Part shown: piece by piece, positions 36 to 64,000 of the stretch
Layout of the letters: each line of letters begins with the position of its first letter
How positions within the stretch are numbered: position 1 is the stretch's first letter
Assembly: GCA_030386875.1 (NCBI GenBank)
Contig: CM059557.1
Coordinates: 61,954,514 to 62,018,513, forward strand
DNA: 64,000 nt
Direction: 5' to 3'
From: Morinoia aosen
Taxonomy: Eukaryota > Arthropoda > Malacostraca > Amphipoda > Talitridae
Translations under genes and position numbers: made by a program
The notes under the pieces: model-generated
What the model saw: only the letters and a program-made list of their open reading frames with translations
Database searches by the model: none
Told to the model about the DNA's origin: nothing

Positions 36-39
36 CTTC

Positions 40-3759: not shown

Positions 3760-4135
3760 AAAGACTATAGCCTATTAAAAGGAGTTAGACACAGCTTAGG
3801 CTAGTTCTAACTAGGCCTAGATAGTTCAACACTGCTTAGCCGTATGTAGGCTAACTAGGTATAGTTAACTAGGCCTAACTTAGGTAGTTAGGGTAAAGGC
3901 AGGAACGACCGGCCCTGCAGTAATAACTGGCCTCCTTAACAAAAAGCAATTGGAGTAAAGAGCCTGCTCCTTTTCTCCATTGCTTTTTGTTAAGGAGGAG
4001 AGTTAGCTTATTAGTGCAGGGCCGGTCAGTCCTGCCTTTACCCTAGCTAGGTAGCCCTATTTTACACTGCCTGGGTCATACTTCAACACTGACTAGGCAT
4101 AGCCTAATCTAACTAAGCCTAGCTACTTCTCATTT
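3760..4135. repeat. Cluster of TAGGCCTA-like short repeats
   Basis: Many short variants of CTAGGCCTA / ACTAGGC / TAGCTAGG occur on both sides of the hairpin at 3889-4045, for example at 3799-3823, 3847-3882, 4043-4055 and 4092-4125. Dense short subterminal repeats are typical of CACTA-type elements, so this may mark the upstream end of the element carrying tnp2-like copy A. That link is inference. Confidence 0.45.
3889..4045. mobile_element. 157-bp hairpin (MITE-like) element
   Basis: Two near-perfect inverted arms. The left begins AGGGTAAAGGCAGGA and continues through CCGGCCCTGCA to CTCCTTAACAAAAAGCAAT. The right reads back as the complement, ending TGCCTTTACCCT. A loop of under 25 bp lies near 3960-3980. 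The right arm has a small insertion (TTAGCTTATTAG region). There is no coding capacity. Size and structure fit a foldback MITE. Confidence 0.75.
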
Positions 4136-7100
4136 TATGAGCACAAAAGAACAGAAATAGCTGCATGGTAAACTTAAACACCCTAATTTTAAGTTATGAA
4201 TATCCTAAAACAATGCACAATGCCTATACAGTTGATAACACGCATAAATACGCGCGAATTTTTTGCGCGCACACACACACACACAAACACCGGTCTGACA
4301 GGTTTAGGTTATTGCTTGTTTAAAAAAGCTGCGTAGTAATACCAACATTAACTTTATCAACACTTTTCCGCAAGTAATTCTGCAATCTATACGTTTATTA
4401 AATAAAAATATCGAACATAGCATAATTATTTACGAAAATTTCTACATTTTTTTATTTAGAATAATTCTATTCTAAATTCCTGCGCTGAAGAGTATAGTTC
4501 TACGCAAGAGTCTCTTCATTTTTCTTAACACGACCGCTTGTGCAGCTACATAAAACATGTAAGCCCGATGTGATAGATAAAAACTTATCACCAATAAAGT
4601 TGATACATGCAATGAAATATGGCCAATATTGGCTTCTACTAAACTATAATATTAGAGTCCTCAATTGGTATACGTGTCTTTATAGTGCATAATACCCGCT
4701 AGATATTAAAGGGGGCTAATTGGTGACAAAGCATGACATTTCAACAGACTTAAGCCCTGTATACAGATTTAAAATGCCCTGAAAACCAGAAAACGTACAA
4801 GCATTTGTTCTGAAATGCACTAACTTGATACTTTAAAATTTTCAAGTCTATTACTTCCCAATCGATATACGTATAGGCCTAGTGGAAGCGCAAATAAAAG
4901 AGTTTTCCTTATTAAGAAATGTCGGTTCTGCCCATAATTTTAAAACATTTAACTTAGGTAGTTATTCAAGTTTTCCATACATTTATGCACTTATTATCAA
5001 CTGCTTATATGTTAGTTCTTGTTAGTTACCAAAGTCCAAAATTTAAATGAACTTTGTTAATATATGTGTATTTTCTGTCAACGAAACTTAACGGCAAACT
5101 CAACATGCCATTTTTCCCGGCAAAGTACTATAGGCTCCTACACTTCATACAGGCTATAGATAAAAGTTGCTCTTTTGAAAGGACAACTTGCTGTAACCTA
5201 TAAGCTACATATGCAAGTTTGTCTTAACACCTATTCACAGCGATATTTTACTCGAACCAATGATTCAATTATTTATATAAGCCAAAAAGCCAAAATTATT
5301 ATTCATACAAGCCAAAATTAATTCAACTAAAATCCATCAAGCAAAGAGTTAAGAACTTCATTGATGAATAATTACTATTCGAGGTGATATAGGGCCTGTA
5401 ACTTGTAAAAAGTTTTTTATGTATGGACAGGAACAGTTTCATTAATTTATTACGACCATGGTGTATTGTCAATATTTTATTACCTTACTTTCTTCATATT
5501 AACTGATGTCAAATGTTTTTTTTCTTCGACCTATGTGTTCAACAGAGTTTGATGTATTATAGGTACTGTTCTGACTGCGTCATTAGAATTAGTATTTGCG
5601 TTCATAAATTATTAAGACCTTATTGTATTGTAAATGTTTTATTTTTTTTTCTAATTTCATTGCCGCGAAATGGTTCTTGAATGTATGTGTTTAATCGAGT
5701 TTTCTCAAATTTGATACATTAGAGTTACTATTTTGATGGCTATTGTTCGTAACAAACATAAATCGTCGTTTCCTATCTCTCTTTCCCCTTTTTCGATTGA
5801 TGTCGAGTACGATACACCGTGACCGGTTTTGAGATACATGATGAATAGACAATTTCTCTCAGTGAAGGATTTGCCTTGTAAGAAAAATCAAACAGTATGG
5901 GTGATTCGGTTCCCATAATTGGTGACTCTGTACCATGGTACCTACCCTAATTTTATTTTTTTTAGCAAATAACTATTGAACAATTTCGTATCTACAAAAT
6001 CCTTATGTTAATAGTAGTTTGTAAGGATTTAGTAATCAGGTATGGTTGCTGTAATGAATGATTCTTAGGTACTTAAACGTTTATTTAAATTTCTTGGCGT
6101 TACAAATTCATGAAACATACACTAACACACAACTTTTTTGCTCGTTGTATTTTTTTATATTTCACGATTAAATTCTTTCCCTTGTAGCGTAACACAAGGT
6201 GTTTATATAATTTAATTTAATTTAATTTATAACTACACAATATGCATTTTTAAGCATATTCTTACGCTTGGTTTCCAGTAATGTATTTGGTATAGTATTT
6301 TTCTTGGAGTGCCAGTACGGGCTTACAATCGGTTTTCCTTTTCAACTGAAATGAATATACCGGAACGAAACAGGCTTCCCACAATACTCTCGTTGAGAAT
6401 GGGAACCCATTACTGACCCAACTCGCCCGAGACGTAAATTTACTCTTTAAAGAGAAGCCAGAGTTAATCCCGTACTGAAATTACACTTTTCACGGGAATC
6501 CAGTACTGACCCTTCGTTTCCTACGTCACCCCATTGAACAGCCATTAATAAATGCTGACTGGGACGTTCTATATCATTATGTTACCGACAGAATTAAGTC
6601 TTACGAGTCTACGGCACTCTGTTTATTTCGATTATTCTTTTACTAATAGTGGAAAAGTTCTATTGGAGCGATGTTTGGCTTTAACATTATAAAAATCAAT
6701 AACAATAACATACGCGTATGATAACAATAACATTATCTAACTTCTATTTTTAAGTCTACGGTAACGCACACGATGTTTTGAATGTTTATTTTTGGTGAAA
6801 ACTTTATTGATTCTCTAATTTGATATCCGTCTAATTTCATTATCTTTTCTGAATTATTTTTCGTTACCTTCGAGGTAATAGCGTTGTTCATTATAAAATT
6901 TTCCGAAATTGCCTTGCCGATGAACTCGTGTTTTGCTCGGAGTTATTATAATCTTATAATCCCTAGGTTTATTTTGTTTGCTTTGTTTAGTTATAATTCT
7001 TATGTTTATGCGCGATTTTGCATACGTCAAGTAACGATGTTCAAGCAAAGTTGATGATGTTTGCTGTAAATGTATTTACTGTGGCCACGATTTCGAAATT

Positions 7101-17872: not shown

Positions 17873-19105
17873 TCACTAATGGGCACACTCTTTGGATATC
17901 GAATCTTTAAAAGAAATAAAACCACAAACGATGAAATAAAATTCATATTGATGGGCATTCAGACTAGCGCGCATAGTTTCGAATATTACAATTCATTTTC
18001 AATAAATGCCTGAAACAAAATAAGACAGCACATTAAAAAAGACTTACAATTTTGCATATTAATAATGAAATTGAAATTACATATTATGATTTCAGAGAAT
18101 GTTCAATGGATATGCAGATTGGTCAAAATTCAAATTAAATTGCAGTTTTCTTATATAAATGGATTCTAAAATTCTGATATCTATTTCATTACAAGTATCT
18201 ATAATTTTGAAATCAACACTGGAAAAACTATGGTTGGTCTGCTCACAATGGGTCCTGGCGGCAGACTGAGGTAGAGTTTGAAGTGGATTATTTGTTCTGA
18301 AAGAACGGCCTAAATGTTGCCAGAAACGAATTTCGACTGCTTTCGCGTACTCCCAATATAGGAACTCTTGCAAGTTCCGCACGTATATTGATAAATGACA
18401 TTCGCGAGAACAGCCGAAGGCAGTCGATCTTTATATTGAAAAAAATTTTGAATATTGATTGAATTTTTGAAGCTGAAGCGAATACTTCTGCATATCGTGT
18501 GAACACTCGCCAATGAAAGGTAAAGACACATAAAGTTTTTTCTTCGCAACAGTAGGTAGATCGGGATTATTAGACGTAAATTTAGTGCACAGAAAATTCT
18601 TCACGATATTCTCGAATAAATGGATGGGATAACAGTCGTCTGAAAAGAATTTACGGAGAAAGTCAAATTCTATGGCCATTAAATTATAATTGGATGATAA
18701 ATGATAACCTCTGTAAATAAGGGTACGAATTGCATTCAGTTTGTAAATAAAAGAGGAGAAACAATGAAAATTCATACCAAGTCCAGTGAACGTAGGTTTC
18801 CTATAAACACTTAGTTGAAGTTTGCCATTATGCTTGTGAATCAACATATCAAGAAATGGTAGTTTGTTATTGGTCTCCTTTTCCATGGTGAATTGAATGT
18901 TGCTATGGCGTTGATTAATGAAATTCAAAAATTCACCCGCCTGCACCGGATCTTCGAATATTACAAAAGTTTCGTCCAAATAACGTTTGTACAAAATAGG
19001 TTTAAAGTTTACAGGACAGTCTGATAGAAATTTCTCCTCCAATCACAAAGAAATATATTTGCTAGAGTAGGTGCCAACGGATTTCCCATAGCTAAACCAT
19101 TTGCT
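17873..19105 (-). pseudogene. Inverted, 5'-truncated Penelope-like copy
   Basis: A nearly identical, inverted copy of the 3' half of the element at 19106-21958. It begins in the RT domain (equivalent of about 20758) and runs through the GIY-YIG region into the terminal repeat. Damage includes a one-base deletion near 19040 that shifts frame, a 4-bp deletion near 19090, another frame break near 18380-18440, and YLDE in place of the RT catalytic YLDD. Its terminal repeat is about 45 bp longer than that at 21958. Inverted truncated partners are usual for Penelope insertions. Confidence 0.85.
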
Positions 19106-19383
19106 AAACTGCAACCTAATTTGAATTTTGACCAATCTGCATATCCATTGAACATTCTCTGAAATCATAATATGTAATTTCTATTTCATTAGTAATATGC
19201 AAAATTGTAAGTCTTTTTTAATATGCTGTCTTATTTTGTTTCAGGCATTTATTGAAAATGAATTGTAATATTCGAAACTATGCGCGCTAGTCTGAGTGCC
19301 CATCAATATGAATTTTATTTCATCGTTTGTGGTTTTATTTCTTTTGAAGATTCGATATCCAAAGAGTGTGCCCATTAGTGATA
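19106..19383 (+). repeat. 5' pseudo-LTR of the Penelope-like element
   Basis: Begins with the last coding bases of the element ORF (LNFDQSAYPLNIL and stop), continues through a 38-nt intron-like segment and ends within the first codons of the ORF. It matches 21718-21958 directly and 17873-18145 inverted. Confidence 0.8.
19207..19244 (+). other. Candidate 38-nt intron in the Penelope 5' pseudo-LTR
   Basis: Donor ATT|GTAAGT and a pyrimidine-rich acceptor TTTTGTTTCAG lie 38 nt apart, upstream of the ORF start at 19308. The same segment is kept in the 3' repeat (21821-21858) and the inverted copy (18010-18047). Retention of introns is a known feature of Penelope elements. The length is unusually short, so real splicing is uncertain. 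Confidence 0.4.
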
Positions 19384-21776
19384 AGATTAGAAGTAGGTAT
19401 GGGCAAGATGGACTTCTATATTTTCGCCGATATGAACAAATTTCATCGAAGTTCCGGAAAGCTGAAGAAGACCTGCATTTTCTACAATGTTGCAAGGCGT
19501 ATAAAGTAATTCCGAAGTTCAAGTGCTTCAAGCTTTACAAGAAATGCTTACACTCCTCTGAGCATTACAAGAGGTATCAACAGCTACTACTGGACCACGA
19601 AATCAAATTAAAAAAAACTAAAATTGGCCAATTGAAAACCAAACTTGCGTCGACTGCTTCAGAACTGTCAAGAAAGGTGTCCTCGTTTGATTTTATGTGC
19701 TTGCAAGTGTTCTGTAAACGTAATGTCAGTAGGTATATCCAAAGAGTAAGACTAATACACGAAAAGAAAATCAACGAGTTAGGTGCCAGGTTAAACTTAC
19801 ATTCATGTGATCCGTCCAAAGTGATCTTTAATTTTTCTGTCCGCATTTTGACTCAACGTGAGCAATTTTTATTATCATTTGGACTTCAATTCAATTTACC
19901 AGTGACTAAGTTGCACTTTGAACGTTATTTTCTATCCTTTGAAATGTTTATCAACAATCTTAAACCACAAAACCTAATTCCGACCATTAATTTTAATACA
20001 GTGATCGACATCATCAAAAAAAAGGCGTGTGAAAGCTACTATGGTTTTAAATCGGCAGGAATTTTTTCTCCTATTTTTACAGTTGACGATATCCAAATAC
20101 TCAAAAAATTAGGCAAGGAAACTAATCTAGTTGTTTGTAAACCTGATAAGGGCAATGGTGTGGTGTTAATGAATAGAGAGGACTATGAGGATAAAATGAA
20201 CGCAATATTATCTGATCCAACGAAATTTTCAAGATTGAACGATGCTGATCCTCTTATAACAACTGTTAGAATTGAAGACAAAATCAATAGGTTCTTGCTA
20301 AAGTTGAAGAATATGAACATTATTTCCAATGAAACTTATCACTCTGTTTACGCCACAGGCTCTGCTCCTGGTATATTGTATGGGATAGCTAAAGTTCATA
20401 AAAATGGTATACCCTTACGCCCAATTTTGGCAGCATTTAAAACGCCCATATTCAAATTATCAAAATTTCTTATACCTCTTCTCGATAAATTCTCCCTTAA
20501 TGAATACTCAATAAAGAATTCTTATGAATGCTTTAACTCAGTTAATGGTCTCAAAGTTAAACCTAACAATACTCTTGTCAGTTTTGATGTTACTTCCCTT
20601 TATACCAATGTACCTGTAATAGAAACCTTAGACATGTTATGTAGGAAAATCTTTTGGGTTAATGAGTCCTTTCACGGTTTGGACAGAAATAAATTGCTTG
20701 AACTTTCAAAATTAGCTGTTGTCGACACTATCTTTCTATTCAATAATGTGATGCATAAGCAAATGGATGGTTTAGCTATGGGAAATTCGTTGGCACCTAC
20801 TCTAGCAAATATATTTCTTTGTGATTTGGAGGAGAAATTTCTATCAGACTGTTCTGTAAACTTTAAGCCTATTTTGTACAAACGTTATTTGGACGATACT
20901 TTTGTAATATTCGAAGATCCGGTGCAGGCGGGTGAATTTTTGAATTTCATTAATCAACGCCATAGCAACATTCAATTCACCATGGAAAAGGAGACCAATA
21001 ACAAACTACCATTTCTTGATATGTTGATTCACAAGCATAATGGCAACCTTCAACTAAGTGTTTATAGGAAACCTACGTTCACTGGACTTGGTATGAATTT
21101 TCATTGTTTCTCCTCTTTTATTTACAAACTGAATGCAATTCGTACCCTTATTTACAGAGGTTATCATTTATCATCCAATTATAATTTAATGGCCATGAAA
21201 TTTGTCTTTCTCCGTAAATTTTTTTCAGACGACTGTTATCCCATCCATTTATTCGAGAATATCGTGAAGAATTTTCTGTGCACTAAATTTACGTCTAATA
21301 ATCCCGATCTACCTACTGTTGCGAAGAAAAAACTTTATGTGTCTTTACCTTTCATTGGCGAGTGTTCACACGATATGCAGAAGTATTCGCTTCAGCTTCA
21401 AAAATTCATTCAAAATTCAAAATTTTTTCAATATAAAGATCGACTGCCTTCGGCTGTTCTCGCGAATGTCATTTATCAATATACGTGCGGAACTTGCAAG
21501 AGTTCCTATATTGGGAGTACGCGAAAGCAGTCGAAAATTCGTTTCTGGCAACATTTAGGCCGTTCTTTCAGAACAAATAATCCACTTCAAACTCCACCTC
21601 AGTCTGCCCCCAGGACCCATTGTGAGCAGACCAACCATAGTTTCTCCAGTGCTGATTTCAAAATTATAGATACTTGTAATGAAATAGGTATCAGAATTTT
21701 AGAATCCATTTATATAAGAAAAGTGCAATTTAATTTGAATTTTGACCAATCTGCATATCCATTGAACATTCTCTGA
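19308..21776 (+). CDS. Penelope-like reverse transcriptase with GIY-YIG endonuclease
   Basis: Intact ORF of 822 codons from the ATG at 19308; an upstream in-frame GTG at 19296 is unlikely to be used. The N-terminal third is basic and linker-like. The RT core includes VCKPDKGNGVV, KVHKNGIPLRPI, SFDVTSLYTNVP, MDGLAMGNSLAPTLAN and the catalytic KRYLDDTFVIF. The C-terminal GIY-YIG domain has IYQYTCGTCKSSYIGSTRKQ followed by RFWQHLGRSF. This domain order is specific to Penelope-like elements. The protein copies element RNA at nicked or free DNA ends. All RT and endonuclease signatures are present and the frame is open, so it may be active. Confidence 0.93.
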   Translation: MNFISSFVVLFLLKIRYPKSVPISDKIRSRYGQDGLLYFRRYEQISSKFRKAEEDLHFLQCCKAYKVIPKFKCFKLYKKCLHSSEHYKRYQQLLLDHEIKLKKTKIGQLKTKLASTASELSRKVSSFDFMCLQVFCKRNVSRYIQRVRLIHEKKINELGARLNLHSCDPSKVIFNFSVRILTQREQFLLSFGLQFNLPVTKLHFERYFLSFEMFINNLKPQNLIPTINFNTVIDIIKKKACESYYGFKSAGIFSPIFTVDDIQILKKLGKETNLVVCKPDKGNGVVLMNREDYEDKMNAILSDPTKFSRLNDADPLITTVRIEDKINRFLLKLKNMNIISNETYHSVYATGSAPGILYGIAKVHKNGIPLRPILAAFKTPIFKLSKFLIPLLDKFSLNEYSIKNSYECFNSVNGLKVKPNNTLVSFDVTSLYTNVPVIETLDMLCRKIFWVNESFHGLDRNKLLELSKLAVVDTIFLFNNVMHKQMDGLAMGNSLAPTLANIFLCDLEEKFLSDCSVNFKPILYKRYLDDTFVIFEDPVQAGEFLNFINQRHSNIQFTMEKETNNKLPFLDMLIHKHNGNLQLSVYRKPTFTGLGMNFHCFSSFIYKLNAIRTLIYRGYHLSSNYNLMAMKFVFLRKFFSDDCYPIHLFENIVKNFLCTKFTSNNPDLPTVAKKKLYVSLPFIGECSHDMQKYSLQLQKFIQNSKFFQYKDRLPSAVLANVIYQYTCGTCKSSYIGSTRKQSKIRFWQHLGRSFRTNNPLQTPPQSAPRTHCEQTNHSFSSADFKIIDTCNEIGIRILESIYIRKVQFNLNFDQSAYPLNIL

Positions 21777-27576: not shown

Positions 27577-27640
27577 AAGCAGTGCAATAACTAAATAAGT
27601 GCAATAACTAAAGAGTGCAATAACTAAAGAGTGCAATAAT
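27577..27640 (+). repeat. Tandem AGTGCAATAACTAA repeat in LINE leader
   Basis: Four tandem units of about 15 bp (AGTGCAATAACTAAA/T) abut the ORF1 start codon at 27639. The last unit provides the AATAATG start context. Tandem 5' leader units are known in LINEs as promoter modules; that role here is inference. Confidence 0.7.
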
Positions 27641-28730
27641 GACCGTGAGTGCCGTGTGCCGGCTGGTCCCTGTGGGGGTGACGTGTGGCTGTGGGGACGC
27701 TGTGAGTGGCGTGGGGCTGAAGTGTGGCGAGTGCGGCGGCTTCACCCACCTGGACTGCTCTGACCTCCCAGCCTACCACCTGCTGCGCCTGGAGCTCACG
27801 AGGACATCCTTTGTCTGCCAGACCTGCGTGACGCCGGTGGTTCGTAAGACTTTTAAGGAGAAGTACGACGAGACGGCGGATAGACTGCAGGCTGACTTAG
27901 CCGCGCGGGCGGGGCAGGCCGGTCGCCCAACAGCGGTGGCTGCAGCTGTGCAGTCTACGCCCCCAGCTGGTGATGTGGGGGTGGATCCCAGTGATCCTGG
28001 CGACCCTGCAGAGGAGAGTGTGCGTACGGAGGCGCGGACAGACCCTGAAGAGGTGTCGGTTAGTGGTCCTGCGGAGGTACGTGCGCAGAGAGAGGTGTGT
28101 AAGCACTTCCTCAACAAAAAATGTAAGCACGGTCGAGGGGGTGAGAAGTGCCGCTTCGCCCACCCGAAACTCTGCTAGTTTCCCACCCGAAGTTTCTAAA
28201 ATTTGGTGGCAAAATGAGAGGGGGCTGCAAAAAGGGAGAGAACTGTAGATTCTACCACCCGGCTATGTGCCGTAAAGCTGAAGGCGGGGAGGAGTGTACC
28301 CGCAAAATATGCAAGTTCCTACATCCCTCCAGCCTGAGTGCTGAGGCTCTCTCAATCGGAGCAGGAGCCCGGAAGGCGTCCCCCTTGCCTACAAATAGAG
28401 AACGGCGACGCGAGGAGCAGCCGGCTTTGAGGCGCATCGCGTCTGCTCCTGATGAGGTAGATGCCAACCTTGACCCGCCGGAACCAGCTGGCGCAGTTGG
28501 TAACCGCAGCCGCGGTACCAGTGACGAGGAAGCAATGAACTTCTCGGCTTTTTTAGGGTTACGCCGGCAGGTGAGCGCCATAGAAGAGCAGTTGTCCCGG
28601 TTACTGAGCTGGAGGATAGAGCGACCTCCGCAGGCGACACGGCCCGGCCCGCAGCTTGCAGCTGTCAGGTCCACTGGTAGCGGGGGTGGACAACGCTGTG
28701 TTCTTGTTCTTGAATATTCAAGGTCTGAGG
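27639..28730 (+). pseudogene. LINE ORF1 protein with PHD-like and CCCH zinc fingers (frameshifted)
   Basis: Starts at ATG 27639. Residues 17-65 form a PHD-type finger (CGCGDAV...LKCGECGG then FTHLDC and VCQTC). Near residue 150 is a CCCH finger (CKHFLNKKC...CRFAH). A stop at 28176-28178 ends this frame. The protein continues in another frame from about 28170 with two more CCCH fingers (CKKGENCRFYH and CTRKICKFLH). The rest, to about 28730, is a polar tail with a short helical stretch (RQVSAIEEQLSRLL). It probably binds element RNA or nucleic acid. One frameshift near 28175 breaks it. Its end overlaps ORF2, which starts in another frame. Confidence 0.7.
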
Positions 28731-31664
28731 CCCTACAGGCAGAAGCGCAAGGTGGAAATGTTGAGGGAAAGGGCCTTGGCTGTTGGTGCGGGGCTGGTGG
28801 CCCTTGTTGAGACCCACCTTAACGAAGAAATCCTGGACGCTGAAGTTAAAATGGAGGGCTTCTGCCTGTTCAGAGCTGATCGAACGGCTGGAATAAAGAA
28901 GGGGGGAGTTGCATGCTATGTAAGGAACGACATATCTCGACATGCTACAGTCCTCTCTGCTGGCACAAACTCGGTGGTGGAGCACCTGGTCTTGTGGTTT
29001 GCCGGCCTGGGCTTGGCGGTGGTGATTGTTTACCGCCCTCCAACTTGTCAACAGGCTAACTTTGAGCAGGCAATTAGCCTCATATCCTCGGCGCTCGAAT
29101 CTCTGCCAGCTCCATTCCCCAGAATTGCTGTTATGGGAGACTTCAACTTTCCAACCATGTGCTGGGAGTCGGGTCATGCCTATGGGGGAACGAGAGAGTC
29201 AAGAGTGCAGAGCGAGTACCTCTGGAACTTTATGGAAAGCTTAGCCCTGGAGCAATACGTCCGCCTCCCAACTCGACTAGACAACGTCCTAGACCTGTTT
29301 TTAACAAACGACGACGAGTTGGTCAGACGGGTTGAGGTTGAGGAGACTATTATGTCCGACCACAGATGTATCCTCATATTTGGTGACCTTGGCCTGGAGC
29401 GGCAGAGTCTGGGACCGAGGAGCGTCGGGAGGGTCGCTTGACTCTCTCAATTTTATGAGTGATCGCGTAGACTGGACTGGCCTATCGGGAGCGCTGGGTG
29501 ACACTGACTGGGATGCACGTTTGGCTGGACGTACCCCCAACGAGATGTACGACGAGATCCTCGCTGTCTTGTCCGAGGTCTGTCCAAGATATGCCCCAAC
29601 ACGGAAGATTGGGGGGATAAACCCAATACCTAGGGACCGGAAGGCACTAATGAGAAAGCGCTCAAAGCTGCTTAAAAAAGTTGGGACGTTGGCGCGCTCG
29701 GGGACCGCCAGGGATGGCATCCTTGTTAGAGTAGCTGAGATCGAGAGGCAGCTCGAAGCGTCACATGATGAAGAGGAAAGATCCTGTGAAGATAGAGCCA
29801 TCGCCGCTATAAAAAATAACCCTAAATACTTCTACTCGTACGCCAGGAGGAAACTTCGCACAAAGTCGGTTGTGGGACCGTTTGAGTCGACGCACGGAAT
29901 GTGTGCACCCCTGAAGAGAAATGCGCTGTGATGCGCGCACAGTATGAGGCGGTATTTAGTCGGCCCAAGTTTGGGGAAGACGCTGGCGGCTGGGGCCCGA
30001 ATGAGTGGCCGAGTACCACACCGATAAACCTGGTGGACTTTGAATTCGGTGAGCGAGACGTTGAGGAAAACATTGGCGAGCTCTCACCCTCGTCGGCGCC
30101 GGGTCCAGACAGTGTTCCGGCTGTCTTCCGATGCAACTGTAGAGTTGCCATCAGCAGGCCTTTGTTCCTGCTCTGGAGGGCATCACTGAGTGCGGGGGTC
30201 CATACCTACCAAACTCAGGCTGGGAATTATTACCCCCACATATAAAAGGGCGAGAAACACCTACCCCGGAATTATAGGCCGATCACACTGACCTCCCACA
30301 TTATAAAGATCTTTGAGAAAATAGTAGTGAAAAGGCTGGTGGGATATATGGAGGATGATGAGTTGTTCAACCCGAGTCAGCACGGGTTTAGAAGAGGGAG
30401 GTCCTGCCTCTCACAGTTGCTTGAGCACCAACGGCACATCACGGAGGCCCTCGGTCGTGGTCATGCAGTGGACGCTGTATACCTAGATTTTGCTAAGGCA
30501 TTCGATAAGGTAGACCATGGGATCTTGCTTAGAAAGTTGAGGGTTGCTGGCGTTGGTGGCGACTTGTGGAATTGGATCAGGTGCTTCCTTACTGGCAGAA
30601 AACAAGTAGTGGCCGTTGACGGATGCCGGTCAGCCGAGTCGCGAGTGATAAGTGGAGTGCCCCAGGGCTCGGTGCTTGGGCCACTTTTTTTCTTGGTCCA
30701 TGTCAGTGATATTGACGTCGGATTACTCCACTCCTGCGCCTCATCATTTGCGGACGATACAAGAGTTTTTAAGGAAGTGGCCAGCAAGCAAGACTGCGAG
30801 GCCCTGCAGCAGCACCTAATCAAAATCAACGAAAGGGCCGAGGTGAGCAACATGTGCTTCAATGAGAGCAAATTCGAGCTCCTTCGTTGCGGTCACCATC
30901 CGGATGAAACCTTCCCCTACACAATTGCTGGTGGGGTGGTTGTAGAAAGGAGGTCATCAATCAGGGATTTGGGCGTGATCGTGGAGGACGGGGGAAGCTT
31001 CACAAAGCACATAGACTCGGTCTCAAAAAAGTGTCGAAGCCAACTCGGATGGATCCTCCGGACGTTTCGTGTCCGGGAAGCAGCGTCCATGATGACCTTG
31101 TATAGAGCGCTGATTTTGCCCCCGGCCGAATACTGCTGCCAGCTGTGGAGTCCGATTGCGACGGGGGGGATCCAGAAAGTGGAGGCAATTCAGAGAACGT
31201 TCACGTCAAAAATCGTCGGAATGCAGCGGTTCAACTACTGGGAGAGGCTCCAGAGGTTATCACTGTTCTCCCTGCAGCGACGACGAGAGCGGTACTTGAT
31301 AACTTACACCTGGAAGATGCTGGAGGGACTGGTACCAAACTTTGTTCACACGAGTCTGGCGTTGAGAATTAGACAGCATCCCCGATTAGGGAGGTTATGT
31401 GTCGTTCCGCCATTCAACAACAGGGCTCTAGCCAGCGTGAGGACGCGCCATGAAAGAACTTTTTCGGTCATTGGCCCAAAACTCTTCAACTGCCTCCCAA
31501 TCGAACTGAGGGAGTCCCGTGGGAAACTGGCTGCCTTCAAATCAAGGTTGGATAGGTTCTTGGCGTCGGTCCCGGATCGACCTCCGACTCCGCATTACTA
31601 CCAGCCTGCGGCGGGCAACAGCCTCCTACAGCAGGTGGCGCAGCTGAGAGTGGAGGAAATGTAG
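28656..31664 (+). pseudogene. LINE ORF2: EEP endonuclease plus reverse transcriptase (frameshifted)
   Basis: 28656-29441 encodes the EEP nuclease: FLNIQGLRP, VALVETHL, VYRPPT, GDFNFPTMCW and SDHRCILIF. A frame change near 29335-29440 leads to the linker domain (to about 29931). A second change follows near 29900 and further breaks near 30200-30250. The RT frame (30327-31664) has NYRPI (just upstream), GFRRGRSCLSQL, YLDFAKAFDKVDH, SGVPQGSVLGPLFF, catalytic SFADDTRVF, and the C-terminal YWERLQRLSLFSLQRRRERY and FSVIGPKLFNCLP blocks of CR1/jockey-type LINEs. The RT part is open, so only the linker region is damaged. Confidence 0.85.
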
Positions 31665-53920: not shown

Positions 53921-55282
53921 GTAGGGTAACCGACACTTCGTTGAACAAACTACAACATAAAGTTGGCACGGTTAAGTGCATACTTTTCACTGAATAACAG
54001 TGTGGTCGAAGGAGCTTCGATAAAAAGTTACGGGGTCTTAAAACTTGAAACGTCTGTATTGAGAAAAATTCGTGCTCGTGGAGTAGCACGCAAATGAAAT
54101 AAAAAATGATGTAAGCAATTTTATGGTGAACCGAACCAACAGAATAATTGCTTTGATTATTATGAGGACTGATACGGATTCGTGAAACTCTTGGTGTTTA
54201 GAATCGTGCCTAGGAAACGCAAAGGCGTTTGAACGCATGCATCGTAGTAAATGGGCGTATAATGTTGAACATCGTTTGTGAATATCTAACCTAATTTAGA
54301 AATCTGTAACACAGTTTTGTAAAAATGTATATTTATACATATATTTCACATGTAATAAATATACATGCATAATAAAAACAAATACATCAGGATTTGAACC
54401 ACTCGGGAGGAAAACTTATCGCTTAGTGTCATAGCTTACGCAGCAGTACGTTGTGGGGTACAATTCTTTTTAAAGGCAAGGAAAATAAACAGTAAAAGGC
54501 TTCCCTGATCACGAACACTTCAATAGGGAAGTTTAAAAGGATTTAGAATGGCTCGATTTGGTGATTTTGGAGCATCGGACACCAAATTGCTAGGTGTATA
54601 TAAAAGAATAACGCTTTAGATAAGGGTATACCGCATTATGCACTTTCTTAAAACGAAAATCTTCCTAAAGATCATCGGTGAGAGAAATGGTCTTTAGCTT
54701 TTGATATATGTTTTGTCGCCTCTCTTGAAGATCTGAGTTACCCACGCTGCATTAAATTAACTCAAAAAGGTTCAAGAAATTTGTTCATGATACCACATGA
54801 GTAGGTGAAAGTAGTATAGCTCAACATTCAAGAAGTTCATTTGCTAGTGCGTTTTCCCTTATGATTCATTCTTCTGTGCCTGCAATTGAGCGAAAGTAAA
54901 AGGAGTATAATTTTATTCGGGTATCTCTGATTTTTTTTTTAGATTTAAGGGAATAAATTATTGAATATATCGCCTACGTCTTCCTCATAGTGACGGGAAA
55001 CACATATACAGTGGTTTTTACAGTGTTGGAAAATATTTTTTGGTCTATTAAAAGAATTCACGGGATAATTTTGCCAATAATAATTGAACTTGGCAAAATT
55101 TCTGCAGAAAAAGATTCTTTCGATGCTCTAATTACAGTGGTAACATCCCAGTCGGAAATTATGGTATGCATCATCGATGATTATGGTCGAGATAATCGGT
55201 TTTTATCGGCGAAATATCTGCCATGTCCAACCTTTATGGGGTACATTATGGTGTGGTTATGTCCCGAATCTTCGACCATAAC
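53921..55282. other. Intergenic; no gene seen
   Basis: AT-rich, with no supported ORF or bounded repeat. Confidence 0.4.
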
Positions 55283-55492
55283 AACCATAATTTCATACCA
55301 TATTCGACCATATGTTACCAATTCAGAACCATAATATCACACCATATTATACCATGTGCGACCAATCACAACCATGTTATACCATATGCGACTAATTACA
55401 ACCCTAATTTCATACCATAATCTACCATATGAGACTAACTACAACCATAATTTCATACTACATTCAACCATATTCGACTAATTACAACCACA
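55283..55492. repeat. 43-bp tandem repeat, about five units
   Basis: Units begin AACCATAATTTCATACCATA and continue TTCGACCATATGCGACTAAT before TAC. Unit three has an internal deletion of about 13 bp; the others are about 43 bp with a few substitutions each. Confidence 0.9.
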
Positions 55493-55643
55493 TAGATTTC
55501 GAACGCGCAACCATGATCTACCATTACAACAGCCAAAATCAACTGTTCACAATTACTGATAGAACTCAACTACAAAAATCAAATATTTCCAATCTTTTTT
55601 TTCACTATGCATCACTCTGGAGGACTTGAAGAGCCAATATTAG

Positions 55644-55712
55644 AGGCCATACAGTAGCGTCAAGGGGTTGAAGAGACAAATTATCGACCGCTTGACGCTA
55701 TTGTATGGTCAG
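55644..55712. repeat. Short hairpin with 20-bp arms
   Basis: GCCATACAGTAGCGTCAAG and its near-complement CTTGACGCTATTGTATGGTC enclose about 24 bp. Isolated; it could be a tiny MITE or a structured RNA. No other support. Confidence 0.55.
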
Positions 55713-56439
55713 TGATATTAGCTTAAATCAAGTTCTTCAAAGTAATATAAAATAAAAAAAAAATGAAAAAGGTTGACCTTTGTAGTTCGTATAGTTCCAT
55801 CAGTAGTTGTAAATAGTTAAATGTGACTGTTTCAATGGTAAAGGTCGCACGTACGAAATCATTAAGATTGAAATTAGTTGCATATGCTATATATGGCATG
55901 AAATTATAGTTATTGTGAGATTATGGTTAGTATGTTTAGAAAGACAGACTATTGATTTTGCATGAATAATTTATTCTTTTAACCCCATGTTTATCTACAA
56001 GAAGTGTCAAAAAAAGACCGAATATTTTCAATATTGTAATAAGAAAATACTTTCATACGCGTTTCAACAAATAAATCCTTTAGCCAGATATGTAAGACTA
56101 GAAGAATATCAAGCGCCATAATTGCTCACAAAAAATAAACATCCCGGAGACATCCAACGAACGTCTTGAGCACGCCAGAGGATTCAAGATATAATTAATC
56201 TTGAACATCTTAAACATAAACCTAAAACATTCTACAACCTATCTTTTAACGTAAACAAAAAATTGACTTTGGTAATTAAATGAAATACCATGAGTTGAGG
56301 TTTTATGCAGATTATAAGATTAATTATTTATACGAAATAGGCTATCGTAGCTTCTAATTTCAAATTCAAGTCACAATGCATACACGAATTCCGCTGTAAC
56401 CGACCGTAATCTCCGGTAAACATTTTCAAACTAGTTGAC

Positions 56440-57155
56440 GCAAATGGCGAAACTCTGAACACAAAAATATGCGCTGGGGCGATGAACAAAAAAGTTGATT
56501 TCTCCAGACAAAGACCCCTTTCAACATTATGGAAAAGTACTTTGAGAAAAGGACACCACATATTCACTGATTATTATTACAGGTTTCCCAAACTGTACCA
56601 GTTCATCAAAGAACATAAAACAAATGCTACTGGAATAATCAGAAAAAATATAGTTGGCGTATCATCTGAAATATAAAATTAGCGAAAGAACAAAAAAAAG
56701 CATTCGAAAGCAGTGATCTTCTTCTTGCACTAGTTTACAGTGATAATCGAGATGTGTTTATGCCGTCTAATGTCCATTGGAATGCAGAAACCACAGTTAC
56801 TCGAAGATCGAAAGAAGTCCGTGTTTGTGTTCAAATTCTAAGTTGCATAGACGACTATAATTTGAACATGGGCTGTGTAGATAACACGGACCAAATGCTG
56901 CACTACCACACAATAAGTAGAAAAACTATCAAGTGGTACAAAAAACTAGCACCACATTTTATTCAAGTTCGTGTGTTAGATGCCTTTGGGATTTATAATT
57001 TTTTTTTTCAAAACTTAAATGACCTATCTTCAATTTTCCATGAAATTGATAAAAGAATTAACTTCCACTTCGAACAGAAGTACTTGACTGAGAAAACTAA
57101 GCTTTTGACTAGTTGGGATACATTTTCAGGGATACGTAACTTCTGCTACAAGTAA
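56440..57155 (+). pseudogene. piggyBac transposase remnant
   Basis: The first part holds ANGETLNTKICAGAMN, then GHHIFTDYYYRFPKLYQF (family DNYYTS..L, catalytic aspartate) and TGIIRKN (family GTIRxNR). A frameshift near 56675 leads to LLALVYSDNRDVFM and then NMGCVDNTDQMLHYHTISRK (family NMGGVDLSDQ, catalytic aspartate), followed by IKWYKKLAPHFIQVRV. It ends at 57153-57155. The N-terminal third is missing. Possible right terminus: GCAGTGAAAGGGTTAA at 57508-57523, matching piggyBac CCCTTT...TTAA ends. Confidence 0.8.
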
Positions 57156-57519
57156 AAATTCCAGAAAAAGATGCCATGTAAGTTATCAACATGGAATCAG
57201 AAAGCAATCACGATATCAGTACAAAACTTTCGAAAACCTTCTTGGACTCAGTGTTATACCCTGCTTTGGAATTGATCACAATGAACTAAACTTTTGAGTG
57301 TGAAAACTGATATTGTAATATATATATATAAAATATCTATTCTAATTATATTAAGTGTTTTACGCATTTTATGTTACATTATGTATTCCATAAAATATGC
57401 TTGGTGAGCTCTCGATATCAAGGGACATCACGGGTTGCGCAGCGCTGTCGTCACGTCGGTGCACAGTGGGCCTCAAAGCGCGCGCTCAGTACCACCGCAT
57501 TGCGCCCGCAGTGAAAGGG

Positions 57520-57523
57520 TTAA
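57520..57523. repeat. Candidate TTAA target site at piggyBac right end
   Basis: TTAA directly follows AGTGAAAGGG, the inverse of the CCCTTTCACT-type piggyBac terminus. A left partner was not firmly identified; TTAACCCC at about 55979 is a weak candidate. Confidence 0.4.
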
Positions 57524-57714
57524 GCTTCCTCCTCTTCCTGAAAGCTTGCCGAAGTAGCAGATGATGGACCCGCCAGTGCTGTTGCTGACCCAAGCACATC
57601 TCCGCTGAAAAAAATGTTACAACTAGAAGCCTGTGTTCCAGCTGTGCTGGCTATGCATGTGACACATGGAATTTTAGAGCAATAGAGAGCGAAATATTTA
57701 AAGGGTTTGAAATG

Positions 57715-58150
57715 TAAGGTCTGAGAAGCATGTTTGGTACGATTTTGATCAACCCAGAAATTAGATCAGACATAAAGCGGCAGTGGTTGGAATGTCGGTA
57801 GGGCGAGAGAAGAAAGTTGAATGTTGAGATGTTTCTGTCATGTGGTGAGAATGAAGGATCAGATGTTGGTGAAGAAACTTACATTATCAGAGTCAAGAAG
57901 AAACAGAAGTAGGAGACTTCCAACTGCTTGGATAGACTGTGTCGAAGGAACTTAGTGTGGGAAAGACGCGTGATGAAGCAAATAACTGTGTAATTGATTT
58001 GGTAAGGGGAAGAAAGATTTCTGATTTAAGTATGACTGTTACATTGACTAAAAGAGTAACATCACCTACTGGGACATGAGCTTATCAGAGTAGCTACCAA
58101 CGAATTACTTGCGTTCACCACGGGTTGGGCACGAATGTAAATGAAAGAAG
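57715..58150 (+). pseudogene. LINE 3' end (RT tail and 3' UTR)
   Basis: The frame GLRSMFGTILINPEIRSDIK matches the LRSMCGVTRxDxxRNE block of arthropod LINE polymerases. It is followed by damaged RSRRLPTAWIDCV-like sequence and a 3' part with GGGACATGAGCTTATCAGAG. Same block as at 34724. Several stops. Confidence 0.6.
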
Positions 58151-58964
58151 GTATTCACCTAATATTAATACCAGAGAATAACTACTTGCTTCATTAATTC
58201 ACAGGCCTCTTGAGTCAGTGCACTAATAACTGTTCCTCCATTAATTCATGAAATTATCTGAGGTCCAGCAATTGTATATAATATTTTATAGTATTGAAGA
58301 CTGCACAAAGTGAAATGTATTATGGCCAATATTCGTAAAACTTTATTCACATCAATATTCGATATAATTGCTATGTTCGCAACGCAAAATATTAAAACTT
58401 ACGTTATGTTCCTCATTGATGTGGAGCGCGATCGACCACCATCCCAGTCGGGGACAGATTTGAGTACAGCGACAACAGCACTGGAGAAGTTGTTGACAGC
58501 CAGACGCGGATGGATTACTTTCCAGGCATCTGATGAAATTAAAGAGATTATGAAAGTGCTGATCGGTTAGATCAAAACGAAACCAGTGTATTGATACCGT
58601 TAATGTTAATGCCGTCGTGTGCCAACATTAATGAAACTATTATCATGGCACACATCAACTTCGAAACAGATATGACAATATCCTGGACAATAACATTGAT
58701 AAAATTCGTGAATCTAGACTAAAATCTACATGGGGCTCATAGTTTACATTGTAGTGATAGATTGTCTGAAACCTGAGAACACTAAGACGGACCAAGAGAA
58801 TGGTTTTCTGGTTCTCCAACTCGAATAAAAGTTTTAAAATCGTTAAAAGTCATAAATAACCTATCATAATCATTTTCATCAACGACTGTTTGATCTGTTA
58901 CAATGCAAATTCCATGTTTTGTAAATGATAAAACTATATAAAATTATAAACCTGATGAGATTTT
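58151..58964. other. Downstream flank of the DUF4806-type gene; no gene seen
   Basis: One 86-codon plus frame (58310-58570) has no recognised content. No polyadenylation signal was assigned with confidence. Confidence 0.35.
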
Positions 58965-61797
58965 TCATACGGTCATACCATAACAACATTTTCCAGCTTG
59001 ATGTTCTCTGAAGCTTTTTTTTGTAGCCTTCCTGTGCGGTCCCAATCCGGTCCAGCTAAAGGAGGCTGCCAGTTTTTTAGTCATCAGCCTCCTAATGAGG
59101 CGCCGCACAGTGTCAACTGATGACCTGCCTTCGAGCGCGTTCAAAGCAGCAGGCTGAAATTAACATAAACAAATAAATTAGTGTCTATCATTTGTAATTC
59201 CTTTTGTGTAGTTTTCAATTAAATACGGTTGATGTTATCACTAAACTAGAAGATGTAGCATAATCAATGAGGAAATGGAATGAATACCACTACATAGCTA
59301 CTACTTTGGCTGAATATAAACGAGTAAATTGTTTACGAATTTATAGAACAAAATTGTACTGAGAATGACACAGAAACGAAATGTTTCATTATAATCCGTT
59401 GAAAAATTCTATTGGACAATAACTATATTAAATTAGCTTAAATGGTCTCATTACGCTATATTAGATCATCAATAAGTACACAGAAGACCAATATTTTTAC
59501 GTCAAAATGGCAACATTCACTCTACTTTGCTATTCTTGAGTAGGGATAAAATATGAATTTCACTTTTAATATATGCTGTTATAAACTGTTCTGCAGTTGA
59601 ATTAACTTACGAGTCCTGGATTCTGAAGTAAAACTTCTAGTTCTTCATCAGTATCAGCTGATGGAGGTATTCCACTCTCACGAGCCAACTGCTGCTGCTG
59701 AGTAGATTCTCGATTGATGCGTTCCTCCTGGAGCATGACGAGAGCCATGTCCACTTTTTTCGCAATCACTTGCAAACTTTTTTTAATGTTGACAATATCA
59801 CTTGTTGATTACGGAACTGAGGGAGCCAGTGAACTGCAATTAAAACACAATGGAATTAAAGGCAAATTACTTATAACGTATTTTTACTTCCCTGGAAGCA
59901 CACAAGGCAATAAAGGTCACGGCAGAAATGTAAAAAAAAAAACAATGTACCAAATTAACTTTGATGGAAAATTACATAGATTCAACAATGTTTGCTTTAA
60001 AAAGCAGAGAGTGGAACATATTTGACATTTATGAACTACTATTCTTTCATATAGTTTTTCCAATTCACCAGTCCACTGCCTAATTGATCAGTGTTGATTT
60101 ATATGTGGACAAGAGTTATGTACTACCTTCAGCATTAGAAAGCAGCTAGTCTGATGCATTTATTGAAATATATCTTATAAAATAGTCATACCAATGAGAC
60201 TATTACGGAACAGACCTATTAAAAGATTAGTCTTAACAATACACAAGCTAACAATGACTTGCTTCTGTGATGCAATAACTCAATGATGTAAAAAATTTTT
60301 TGCATGCTAACAAATCATAAGGTATTCAAATAGGAGCCTAATGCCAAATTCATTAGAACTCGAGAAATAATCTCATACGAGACTAAAAAATATGATAGCA
60401 TTGCAACCAGTGTGAATTGACACAAGCAAGGTAAATGATTATCAACTACCTACCTCTCCGAAGCAGACATGGCATTACAGCGAGGAAGAAGTGACGCAGT
60501 GATGTTGATACGTCTTGGGCATCCCTCCACATCCGTGCTCGTATAGCCATCCGTTTCTGAAGCTACGTAAAGTTTTTTCTCACAGCCTGAAAATGATTCT
60601 GAAAAAAGAAAAATCTTTAGCTGCATATGTTAGTTGGTGTAAATCACCATATTTATTATTATGATGCACCTAGTTTGAGCTTCCCTAACCCCCGCAAGGC
60701 TATCCTCAAGAAGAAATGGGACCATTACATAGGGAAGAAACAAATGTGGAACATATATATGTATATATATGTATATATATATACATAGCTATATATATGT
60801 AGCTATATATATAAATATCTGTGTCTGTGCACAAGATATGTTCCCATATAGTTTACTAGAACAAATCAACTTATTAAATAACCATTGAAATAGTGATACA
60901 CTGGCGATATAACCTTTAAATGCATGCTTAGTCTTTGTATATCAAGACTCAAAATAGTGGTGAGTCTCATTTTGCCCTCTAATTAGAAATAACTTTTATG
61001 TAGGTGAATTTTCAATGATATAGTTTTGAACTTTTTCAATTTGAAACGAGAAATTAAAACAAGATTATCTGAAAATGAACAAAAAGCAATAACTAAAGAA
61101 AAATGAAAAAAACACAACTTTTTTAACAGTAAAATTGTATGTTACTGGCACAGTTGCCTAGTATCTTAAAGTAAAACTCAGAATTTTTCCACATAAAAAG
61201 TCTGGATATCTGACAAAAAGTATGGGAATTTAATTGCAAGAAATCACTGCATAAATTTTGCTATTAGGCAGAAGAAATAAATTTTGCTATCAGGCACCAC
61301 GTATTGCTATTAGGCAGACAAAAATGTGCGCTGGTAGCCTAACTGATACATGACAGTAGATTAATTGTTGCATTTGCCTATCTCACAATGTTAAGCTAGT
61401 GTAGGTTTACTTGCTTATTATAGTTTGTACTCAACTGAATATTTTAAACAAATTTGAACTTCTAATGCAATTCTGGCAGCAAGCAGCAAAGACTCAGAAG
61501 TGGCAGTTATTGACATTGATCCATGATACTTATTTATGCGAAAAATTATACATAATAGCTAAATATAGAAGACTTACTTGAATGCGCCAGTAATTTAACT
61601 GAGACTGGTTTCCAGTCATCCGCAGCAGGCAGTCCTTTGGATGCCCGCTCTCGAACTTTATTGAAGTCATTATCAGCAGGCCACAAGCATTTTGTTTTGT
61701 TCTTGGTTTCTTGGAGCCAAATCTTTGGCACAACTTCATGATTCTTGTCACTAAATTTTACTGCAATAAATTTTTTTGCATTTTCAAGTTCAATCAT
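58965..61797 (-). CDS. DUF4806-type protein, four exons, one in-frame stop
   Basis: Exons on the minus strand: 61578-61797, 60454-60598, 59611-59833 and 58965-59153. All three introns have GT...AG ends and the phases (1, 2, 0) fit throughout, giving 258 residues. Exon 1: KKFIAVKFSDKN, EVVPKIWLQ, CLWPADND, the block that precedes DUF4806 in many animal proteins. Exon 3: glutamine-rich helical segment (IKKSLQVIAKKVDMALVMLQ). Exon 4: VDTVRRLIRRLMTKKLAASF then SWTG, the DUF4806 core. Exon 3 has TAA at 59809-59811; using an acceptor at 59801 (AACAAG) would skip it in frame. The gene starts 116 bp after the tnp2-like stop. Molecular function unknown. Confidence 0.75.
59154..61577 (-). other. Introns of the DUF4806-type gene
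   Basis: Three introns: 60599-61577 (donor GTAAGT, acceptor TTTTTTCAG), 59834-60453 (donor GTAGGT, acceptor TTAATTGCAG) and 59154-59610 (donor GTAAGT, acceptor TTAATTTCAG). AT-rich; the first contains a (TA)n microsatellite. No nested gene seen. Confidence 0.65.
60748..60815. repeat. (TA)n-type microsatellite
   Basis: Alternating TATATATG/TATATA and AGCTATATATA runs within the first intron of the DUF4806-type gene. Confidence 0.85.
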
Positions 61798-61913
61798 TGT
61801 AGCTACCTACCTATTTCAAGATGGAATAATGGCAATGACTAAATTTAGCTATCAGCTAACGATGAAGACAGCACCTGCTTAACATATGACTCTTTATAAG
61901 GGAAAATTATCAT
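61798..61913 (-). promoter_or_regulatory. Spacer between tnp2-like and DUF4806-type genes, with TATA-like box
   Basis: 116-bp spacer. A TATAAAG on the minus strand at 61892-61898 lies about 95 bp upstream of the ATG at 61797 and could serve the second gene. The equivalent spacer in the left cassette is only four bases, which argues against a required promoter here. Confidence 0.3.
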
Positions 61914-63970
61914 TTATGACACAACATCTTTGAAAGGCATCCAAGTTCTGAGATTTGTTAAATCAGACACTTTGTAAACCCCTACTTTTGATGATGGAAA
62001 AGGGTCCGTGAAGAAATCTGATTTTTGTAAGAAATGTGACACGAGTATTTCAATTTCACTGTCGCGCTCATGAATTTCAATAACCAATGCAATTTTTCCA
62101 TCTGCAAGCTGAACACAACTGTTCTTTTCAGAGTAAGACCTTATTTTCAGACAAGAATTATTTTTCATAAGCAATTTTCTGTAGCACCTTCTATTTTGTG
62201 TACTTTCACAGCACTCTTTGTTCACAATTTTGCATTTGGTTACAAATTTTTGCTTTGTCTCACTTTTCCAGTGTGCATTAGTATAGACCACGTGTTTACA
62301 GATTTGAATCAGGGGTTTATATCCAGACCTCACTGCAGCTTTAACATGGGTCCCTAAAAATGTTTCAAAGGGAAAGCAAGAGATGTTATCAAGATTTCCA
62401 TATTTAAGGTAATCTTGTGAAAGATGGGCCATAGAGTGAACGTTGTAGGAGACGAAGCCTTTTCCAAATAAGCCAGCTGATTTTTCAATAAATATGTGAA
62501 GAAGATTTTCAATTGTTTCCAAATTATTTTCTTGTTCTTTTGTTAGCAAAAGTTTCATTGCCAGTGAAAAATGCAAAAAGGTTATGTAGACATCCTTACT
62601 CACAACCTTAGAGCTGCACAAAACAAGTGTTCCAATGTATAATAAAAATGTACGAAATTCTGTAGCCTTCCAATGCACCATTTTTTCAATCCCACCTTCT
62701 AATTTTCTGGAAAACTCATCTGGCAAATACATAGAACACTGATCCAACTTCTTATTGAATTTGATTTTTGCTCGTGTATCCATATGCATTTTTTTCTGGT
62801 TGGCTCTGCTGATCTTAAGCCTGCTCAAAAATCTTTTCATTGTGCCCAAAAGGCAGCAGTGCATATAATCAATGATGAAGTCGCTAACCATGTTGCATCC
62901 AAATTCTTCTAATGGAGACTTTAGAGGCGACTTGTGATGATTTTCATCTATGCGCTGTAAAAAACTGTCATCTGTTCTTTCAACACAGTTGATTTCAGGG
63001 AAGACAACCGTTCGATCATGGTACTGGCCACGTTGAATGCAGCGCTCACAGCTGGAATAACCGCTGTGGCTGACTACTCCTTTTAGTGTTGCTCTTATTG
63101 GGGCGTCACATACAAATGGCCCCAGCTTTACTGTGAAACCTTTAGCTCCAAGAGATTGTTGTAGAGTAACAAAATCAAGCAAAAACTGCTCTAGATATTC
63201 TTTAGTTGGAGGCATGTGACACAGAGATATTTTATTTGTACAAAATATTGCTGCACAGAATATGTGGCTGGGAATTTCCAATACTTGCAGAAGGATAGGA
63301 TAAGAATTATACCTGATGGAACCATTACATAACGGCAATCCATCAATATTTATTTTTATGTGAATAGTTTTACATTGATTCACATCTTTGGGAGAGTTTA
63401 AGATATATTCTTCTAACTGTATCCGCCAGTTTGGAAAATAGGCAAACTCACCATCTCCCATATCTTTTGTAAGAAACTCATTTTCTTTTTGAACTAATGA
63501 TTTTGCTGAAGTAGGCAAGCCTAGATATCTAGGAGCTAGCATAGTTAATAATCTATCAACCGCTGCATGAGGAACTTGTTTTTCTGCGTTTAACCAGTTC
63601 TCTAAATTAGATCGCAGAAAATTGGTGCAAGCGATAGTGCACACATTGGCAGCTTGTTTAGGCCTTGTGCTTCCTGGATATTTTCAAATGAATCATTCGA
63701 TTCTTCACTTTCACTAGATGTGTTCACCTGGATGTTTGGTTTAGAGGGTTCACCGCAGGACGTTTCTGCTAATGAAATGAAGCTTTTCATACCACTCACT
63801 GCAGTGGCAGTACAATTGTTGTCATCTTTCCCAGACCTCTCACATTCACTAGAAGTTTGTACGTCGTCACTGTTCCTCCCAGTCCCTGATAGGGACATTT
63901 CTATGATTTTTTTCACACGTCGCCGCTTCTGTTTCTGAGATAAATCGAAGAAATTTTTTCTTTTTCCCAT
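61914..63970 (-). CDS. Transposase_21 (tnp2)-like protein, copy B
   Basis: The main frame (61914-63644) is open for 576 codons. It has NIDGLPLC, CDAPIRATLKGVVSHSGY with a CERC pair, DYMHCCLLGTMKRFL, HWKATEFRTFLLYIGT and SYNVHSMAHL then SCFPFETFLG, collinear with copy A. The N-terminal part starts at ATG 63970 in another frame: MGKRKNFFDL, then KQKRRRVKK, then a serine/acid-rich stretch. A 113-nt phase-1 intron (63602-63714, A|GTGAAA...TTTAG|AG) would join the two frames, and copy A has a phase-1 candidate at the homologous point. Probable nuclear DNA-binding transposase or derivative. The gene lies directly upstream of the DUF4806-type gene on the same strand. Confidence 0.82.
63602..63714 (-). 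other. Candidate 113-nt phase-1 intron of tnp2-like copy B
   Basis: Donor TCTA|GTGAAAG and acceptor AATTTAG|AGAACTGG. Splicing converts two different frames into one and places the junction just before the conserved W-x3-EK-x-VP motif, as in copy A. Other donors cannot be excluded. Confidence 0.4.
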
Positions 63971-64000
63971 TGTTTTGTTAAATTGAAAACAACTGTCTTC

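Follow-up and report, generated by a model that had tools for sequence, protein, structure and literature searches.

DUF4806-type genes as second genes of TRC-like transposons in the amphipod Morinoia aosen

The gene pair at the right edge

Two neighbouring genes lie near the right edge of a 64,000-nucleotide stretch of the genome of the amphipod Morinoia aosen (here called the window; GenBank assembly GCA_030386875.1, 1.99 Gb in 29 contigs; contig CM059557.1, C2:61954514-62018513). The first encodes a tnp2-like transposase and the second a protein of the DUF4806 type (PF16064). Both belong to a transposon whose family we call T1. A second element, of family T2, lies at the left edge, and further families are named A, B and C. 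Genome searches returned positions without letters and only the best candidates were scored; the matches listed therefore lean to well-kept copies, and counts drawn from them are lower bounds. The main features of the right-hand element are as follows.

55147 to 64000, minus strand: in-window part of the T1 element, placed by comparison with the sister copy X22, the terminal inverted repeat (TIR) and the target site duplication (TSD)
55147 to 55165, minus strand: 3' TIR of T1, 19 bp and perfect, reading CCCAGTCGGAAATTATGGT on the plus strand, with flanks AT/AT
55147 to 55460, no strand assigned: T1 subterminal repeat region, with seven 3'-end copies of ATTATGGT (both strands counted), including one within the TIR
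58965 to 59153, minus strand: exon 4 (E4) of the DUF4806-type gene, the DUF4806 core, with the stop codon at 58965-58967
59611 to 59833, minus strand: exon 3 (E3), with an alternative start at 59800
60454 to 60598, minus strand: exon 2 (E2)
61578 to 61797, minus strand: exon 1 (E1), a conserved N-terminal domain
61914 to 63970, minus strand: tnp2-like transposase gene, with D114, D193 and E440 of a 589-residue stretch, a C2H2 site and a BAH-like C-terminus

The transposase gene reads from an ATG at 63970 to a stop at 61914 in two frames. Its N-terminal part lies in the open reading frame at 63602-64000 and the rest in that at 61914-63683, with a frameshift between about 63602 and 63683. Among the 16 genomic matches at 99% identity, 14 hold a 728-residue open frame without stops, one a frame of 769 residues and one contains two stops. 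A sequence-only reading of the window had called this gene complete; because it occupies two frames where most of its nearest copies have one, the window copy is frameshifted instead. Its protein gave no match to Transposase_21 (PF02992) at E<=0.1. That profile is matched at 0.01 by only 3 of 50 aligned transposase sequences, so nearly every member of the group escapes this model. Box I is only partly kept (YP for WP), and box A, [LVI]-D-x-[LM]-H-x3-L-G, is present in T1 as IDYMHCCLLG. The box A and CXXC residues D272, H275, C212 and C215 occur in all 50 aligned sequences. The catalytic residues are nearly as constant (D114 in 49/50, D193 in 50/50, E440 in 49/50), and between the second D and the E stand a C(2)C pair (C212/C215) and an H(3-4)H pair (H416/H420), each in 50/50. 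The spacing of the DDE, C(2)C and H(3)H residues is identical in all 10 sequences listed. The predicted structure of the window transposase matches RAG1, and its modelled C-terminus has the fold of a BAH domain; the protein is thus predicted to consist of a RAG1-like core with a BAH-like tail. Named relatives come from a tunicate, beetles, fish, a tick and a sea cucumber (120 listed of 490 found).

Next on this strand comes the DUF4806-type gene, with its ATG at 61797, 116 bp past the transposase stop, and with four exons, as in the sequence-only reading; GT-AG splice sites join the exons. The strong acceptor of E3 at 59833 leads to an in-frame stop in the window copy, and only the weaker acceptor at 59800 keeps the frame open (247 residues). 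In family C the gene is built otherwise: a single open frame of 298 codons (L028 7374-8267) takes the place of the four exons found in the window family (58965-61797). The claim that the last exon is the DUF4806 core holds by way of relatives rather than for the window sequence by itself. E4 alone is a weak match to the DUF4806 profile (17.1 bits, E=0.007, under the Pfam cut-off of 25 bits), and the whole spliced protein matches at E=0.06. The exons at the same position in family A (36.1 bits), family B (33.6), family C (28.8) and sequence L011 (40.9) pass the cut-off, and they link the window gene to DUF4806. At the other end of the protein, an N-terminal pattern of V-x-F, P-x-x-W and W-P is common to T1, T2, A, B and C. 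The model of an insect relative of the DUF4806 protein is a BEN DNA-binding domain with the BEN fold, and the gene 2 proteins may share this fold. The resemblance of DUF4806 to BEN is already in print, and the earlier statement that the domain lacks any assigned function has to be withdrawn. We propose that the second protein is built of modules: a small domain conserved at the N-terminus, a coiled-coil-like helix and, at the C-terminus, a domain of the DUF4806/BEN type.

Element ends, families and gene pairing

The complete T1 element spans 55147-65638 (10,492 bp) and reaches 1.6 kb beyond the right edge of the window (L010 7638). Its ends were fixed by break-point sequence, TIR, TSD and comparison with X22 (L022+L029), a T1 sister copy that is 92-95% identical to the window element, depending on the piece. 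The 5' copy of the TIR lies outside the window at 65620-65638. The TSD is 2 bp long, AT at the window element and AA at X22. Two family A elements measure 9,282 and 9,288 bp, with termini CCCAGGCAGCATT and flanks AT and GA. The TIRs and short duplications that had been expected around such pairs are therefore present, with a 2-bp TSD at 5/5 elements where both ends could be read. CCC termini occur at both ends of T1, X22, A13 and A16, at the T2 ends (two copies), and at the 5' end of 10 family A and 4 family B copies. The ten family A copies have one common 5' end and different flanks. A16 (L016 with L031) is inserted in a 31-bp minisatellite, which resumes on the far side. The 5' ends in L020 and L026 likewise adjoin tandem repeats, and a target preference for such repeats is possible. 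The 120-bp 5' end of T1 gave 40 scored matches among 249 candidates, all at least 97% identical; the element family has spread recently in this genome.

Short motifs cluster near the ends of two of the three elements tested. T1 holds nine copies of ATTATGGT counting either strand, eight within 500 bp of an end, of which seven are at the 3' end and two are inside the TIRs. A16 holds four copies of the palindrome AGGATATCCT, all within 500 bp of its ends; a 98-bp tandem repeat accounts for three. For the best count in interior control windows of T1 and A16, the median was 2-3 and the 95th percentile 3-4 (palindromes counted twice). T2, the third element, had no end motif above its controls. Because the words were picked as the best, this clustering serves as a lead only.

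The pairing of the two genes was followed across the genome. For T1, the comparison set comprised 75 tnp2-like matches with the window copy included (74 scored of 1674 first-look candidates), 150 E1 matches of 593 candidates and 150 E4 matches of 1230 candidates. Of the listed tnp2-like matches, 71/75 are followed by E1 on the same strand at no more than 500 bp, and none has it on the opposite strand, as the earlier reading would have it; 45 of these 71 pairs are 119-120 bp apart. Either E1 or E4 was found for 74/75, and the one match lacking both is a 109-residue fragment of a split copy. E4 lies within 15 kb downstream on the same strand in 61/75, against 0.04 expected by chance, with none upstream and two near on the opposite strand. 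In the nearer family (at least 79% identity) E4 was found for 33 of 44 matches, 25 of the 33 at 2.70-2.81 kb, and in the family at 68-74% identity for 28 of 31, with 11 at 4.39-4.51 kb and 13 at 7.32-7.42 kb.

The left-hand element carries the same pair. Its features in the window are as follows.

1 to 6563, minus strand: in-window part of the T2 element (15,493 bp in all, to C2:61945584), with a TIR beginning CCCAGTCAGCATTT... and TSD GT
40 to 2256, minus strand: left-hand tnp2-like gene, with one in-frame stop at 1792-1794
1 to 35, minus strand: start of the left-hand DUF4806-type gene, with its ATG at 35, running past the window edge

The T2 TIR is CCCAGTCAGCATTTATTAATGGCTGTTC, with an imperfect partner and GT flanks, and the ends were read from two copies. 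The termini of T1 and T2 have their first seven bases, CCCAGTC, in common. In many T2 sister copies the tnp2-like frame is open over 738 residues. The ATG of the second gene comes four bases after the transposase stop; the protein starts MSSSIKKYVGV, and beyond the edge the sequence reads MSSSIKKYVGVYFEKSNDKAVVPSSWV... There its N-terminus continues as YFEKSNDKAVVPSSWVKTRKNGSHKSSWPS..., with the V-x-F, P-x-x-W, W-P pattern. The last exon was found 4.2 kb further on (L009 1667-1819); it is 45% identical to E4 of the window and gave no match to PF16064. As this pattern and this exon are both present, DUF4806-type exons do lie beyond the left edge, and the suspicion of a second pair there proved right. 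The T2 comparison set comprised 76 tnp2-like matches (75 scored of 1766) and 73 E4 matches at 87% identity or more; the 77 weaker E4 matches of that search, which come from other families, do not enter the pairing count. E4 lies within 20 kb downstream on the same strand in 74/76 listed matches, with 54 of the 74 at 4.14-4.25 kb and none on the opposite strand, so that the predicted enrichment extends to the left-edge family. Some of these tnp2 matches are pieces of one copy, hence only 71 distinct E4 matches are used.

The reverse comparison started from DUF4806. From 138 listed PF16064 places, 18 were taken at even steps and their sequence was read. By blast and profile, tnp2 sequence lies upstream on the same strand at 12 of them; at L023-L025 it amounts to the C-terminal tail only, directly before the DUF4806 frame. 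The other six (L014, L015, L017, L018, L022 and L026) represent the same families in deleted or cut form. Altogether, the DUF4806-type gene holds a constant position in five diverged families (T1, T2, A, B and C), whose transposases are down to about 29-37% identical.

Several further observations concern these families. In family B, L023-L025 are ~99% mutually identical and have the 5' end CCCTAGTAGAAGACGG; they keep the DUF4806 gene and only the last 60-70 codons of tnp2. At L024 5838-6527 the tnp2 remnant and DUF4806 lie in the same frame with one stop codon between them. These copies seem to be deletion derivatives that spread while keeping the second gene only. Three equal-scoring DUF4806 matches lie about 23 kb apart (C2:17799387, 17822489 and 17845617), as if a larger block with one element had been tandemly duplicated. 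T1 also carries cargo.

56159 to 57155, plus strand: piggyBac-like transposase fragment inside T1, on the strand opposite to its genes, with an open stretch of 161 residues at 56670-57152

We take this fragment to be piggyBac-like by eye. In T1 sister copies (for example C20:8578851-8581771) it forms up to four tandem units about 815-900 bp apart, and longer relatives elsewhere in the genome have open frames of 592-598 residues. It is a gene capture with tandem amplification near the 3' end of T1. Apart from the two elements, the window holds an 826-residue open reverse-transcriptase frame at 19296-21776 on the plus strand (RVT_1, E 1.4e-6), presumably Penelope-like from its look, and just left of it, on the opposite strand, a partial similar copy (18092-19042, minus strand). 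A non-LTR retrotransposon lies at 27624-31664 on the plus strand (endonuclease E 1.7e-13, reverse transcriptase E 1e-28), preceded by frames with PHD-like and CCCH-like cysteine/histidine patterns by eye.

The role of the second gene

That the element and its two-gene unit are real is as good as certain. We consider it probable that the two genes make up the coding core of a cut-and-paste transposon of autonomous type and of the TRC kind, with gene 2 most likely supplying an end-binding helper. Gene 1 would encode a RAG1/Transib-like DDE transposase, the analogue of TNPD, which would cut at TIRs starting with CCC and leave the 2-bp TSD. The gene 2 protein, whose long helix may hold it together, would bind the repeated motifs just inside the ends. 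In plant En/Spm, TNPA pairs or exposes the ends for the transposase, and the gene 2 protein may help in the same way. The accessory-factor role given to DUF4806 by the sequence-only reading is plausible, and its most fitting form is probably that of a TNPA-like partner; DNA binding, a target motif and a part in transposition are what we infer for this protein.

The DUF4806 protein might instead regulate the element or counter its silencing, through chromatin or the element promoter and outside the strand-transfer complex. A shared reaction accounts just as well for its strict place next to the transposase in diverged families, the motif clusters sit at the ends of two elements, and the Tudor match is too weak to count. 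We judge a regulatory role of this kind to be rather unlikely.

A host gene captured once and carried as a passenger with no role would not be without precedent, since T1 does carry a captured, truncated piggyBac-like fragment and capture therefore happens. Against this stands the gene order, conserved in all five families, which makes the passenger reading unlikely. In two of the 120 listed transposase relatives the predicted protein also includes a clear DUF4806-type stretch. In the tunicate Clavelina (P0027) it comes after the transposase, as in the elements here (E 1.4e-9, N-terminal part only), and in Rhamnusium (P0051) before it; both may be fused gene models. The proportion of nonsynonymous changes (pN) is also below that of synonymous changes (pS), on small counts: between the window copy and X22, pN is 0.018 and pS 0.069 over E2-E4 of the DUF4806 gene (15 changes; X22 is without E1), and 0.040 and 0.072 over tnp2, where 4 codons were set aside because of stops. 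In family C the changes are too few to read (DUF4806 pN 0.013, pS 0.023; tnp2 pN 0.018, above pS 0.005). Taken with the gene order, a passenger is highly improbable. Finally, counts for other genomes treat DUF4806 proteins as gene families, but two neighbouring host genes or a segmental duplication are excluded here, to near certainty, by exact CCC...GGG ends and 2-bp TSDs, together with scattered insertion sites including a minisatellite and dozens of near-identical copies.

Comparison with known systems

The preferred reading, a two-gene transposon with an end-binding helper, places the element among known kinds. By its CCC termini, 2-bp TSDs and DDE, C(2)C/H(3)H motifs it is TRC-like, within the CACTA/EnSpm-Transib (CMCT) clade. 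The sequence-only reading had suggested a two-protein, animal CACTA-like transposon; a complete two-gene element with TIRs is indeed present, but CCC termini (CCCAG/CCCTAG) and 2-bp TSDs rule out a strict CACTA element. SmTRC1 and the animal TRC elements, described by DeMarco et al. (2006; PMC1636069), come nearest to it. These TRC elements share with the window element CCC termini (Aedes CCCAGTCAAC, Tribolium CCCTAGTAGC...), 2-bp TSDs, two D residues about 80 residues apart, CXXC and box A, and they likewise have a second gene, an open reading frame placed in tandem on a single message (clone B4, SmTRC-PrA2). SmTRC1 differs in being 4.5 kb long with a 54-bp TIR. Its non-transposase proteins are reported as not detectably conserved and given no domain (PMC1636069), whereas the second protein here is of the DUF4806 type in several families. 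The DUF4806 identity of the second gene in TRC-like elements, in several families of one genome, is what is new.

Plant CACTA and En/Spm elements (TNPD and TNPA) resemble the element in joining a transposase gene to that of a second protein and in the DDE residues with C(2)C and H(3-4)H. Subterminal repeats, described for plant CACTA in PMC8978399, have possible counterparts here in two of the three elements tested. Other plant marks, the CACTA terminus and the 3-bp duplication, are absent. Because many near-identical two-gene elements with known ends exist in this genome, they could address the role of the second CACTA-type protein in animals.

DUF4806 itself gains a definite home and a testable job, as the second protein encoded by an animal transposon family that was mobile recently. 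The literature found to name the domain states no biological setting for it. Among BEN-domain proteins (BEND6, Insensitive, BANP and Bsg25A, the last of which we take to be a BEN protein), the C-terminal fold is common with the modelled DUF4806 relative; those are host proteins, and the literature searched gave no tie between BEN-domain proteins and CACTA/TRC elements. PMC7642931 counts 69 DUF4806 genes in one Hydra species and 54 in another, with several transposase domains in the same table, and PMC13270666 reports DUF4806 enrichment in a beetle. Genes counted as host families elsewhere may be transposon copies.

Transib/RAG1 and RAG1-RAG2, also in the CMCT clade, have C(2)C and H(3)H at constant spacing from the second D and from the E, as here (PMC12730594). 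Further likenesses are the modelled RAG1-like core and the two-protein system. The differences are a partner of BEN type rather than RAG2-like, a BAH-like tail fused to the transposase, and a TSD of 2 bp, where that of Transib/RAG is 5 bp. A broader idea, which we put forward tentatively, is that TRC elements are two-protein, chromatin-reading machines, with a RAG1-like transposase bearing a BAH reader and a BEN partner on family-specific end motifs, and that they form an independent parallel to RAG1-RAG2 and a source of host DUF4806/BEN proteins. If so, transposon genes would make up many of the DUF4806 genes tallied for Hydra, zebrafish and beetles. If the BAH and BEN assignments hold, both proteins of the element carry modules for chromatin or DNA recognition, a design comparable to that of RAG1-RAG2.

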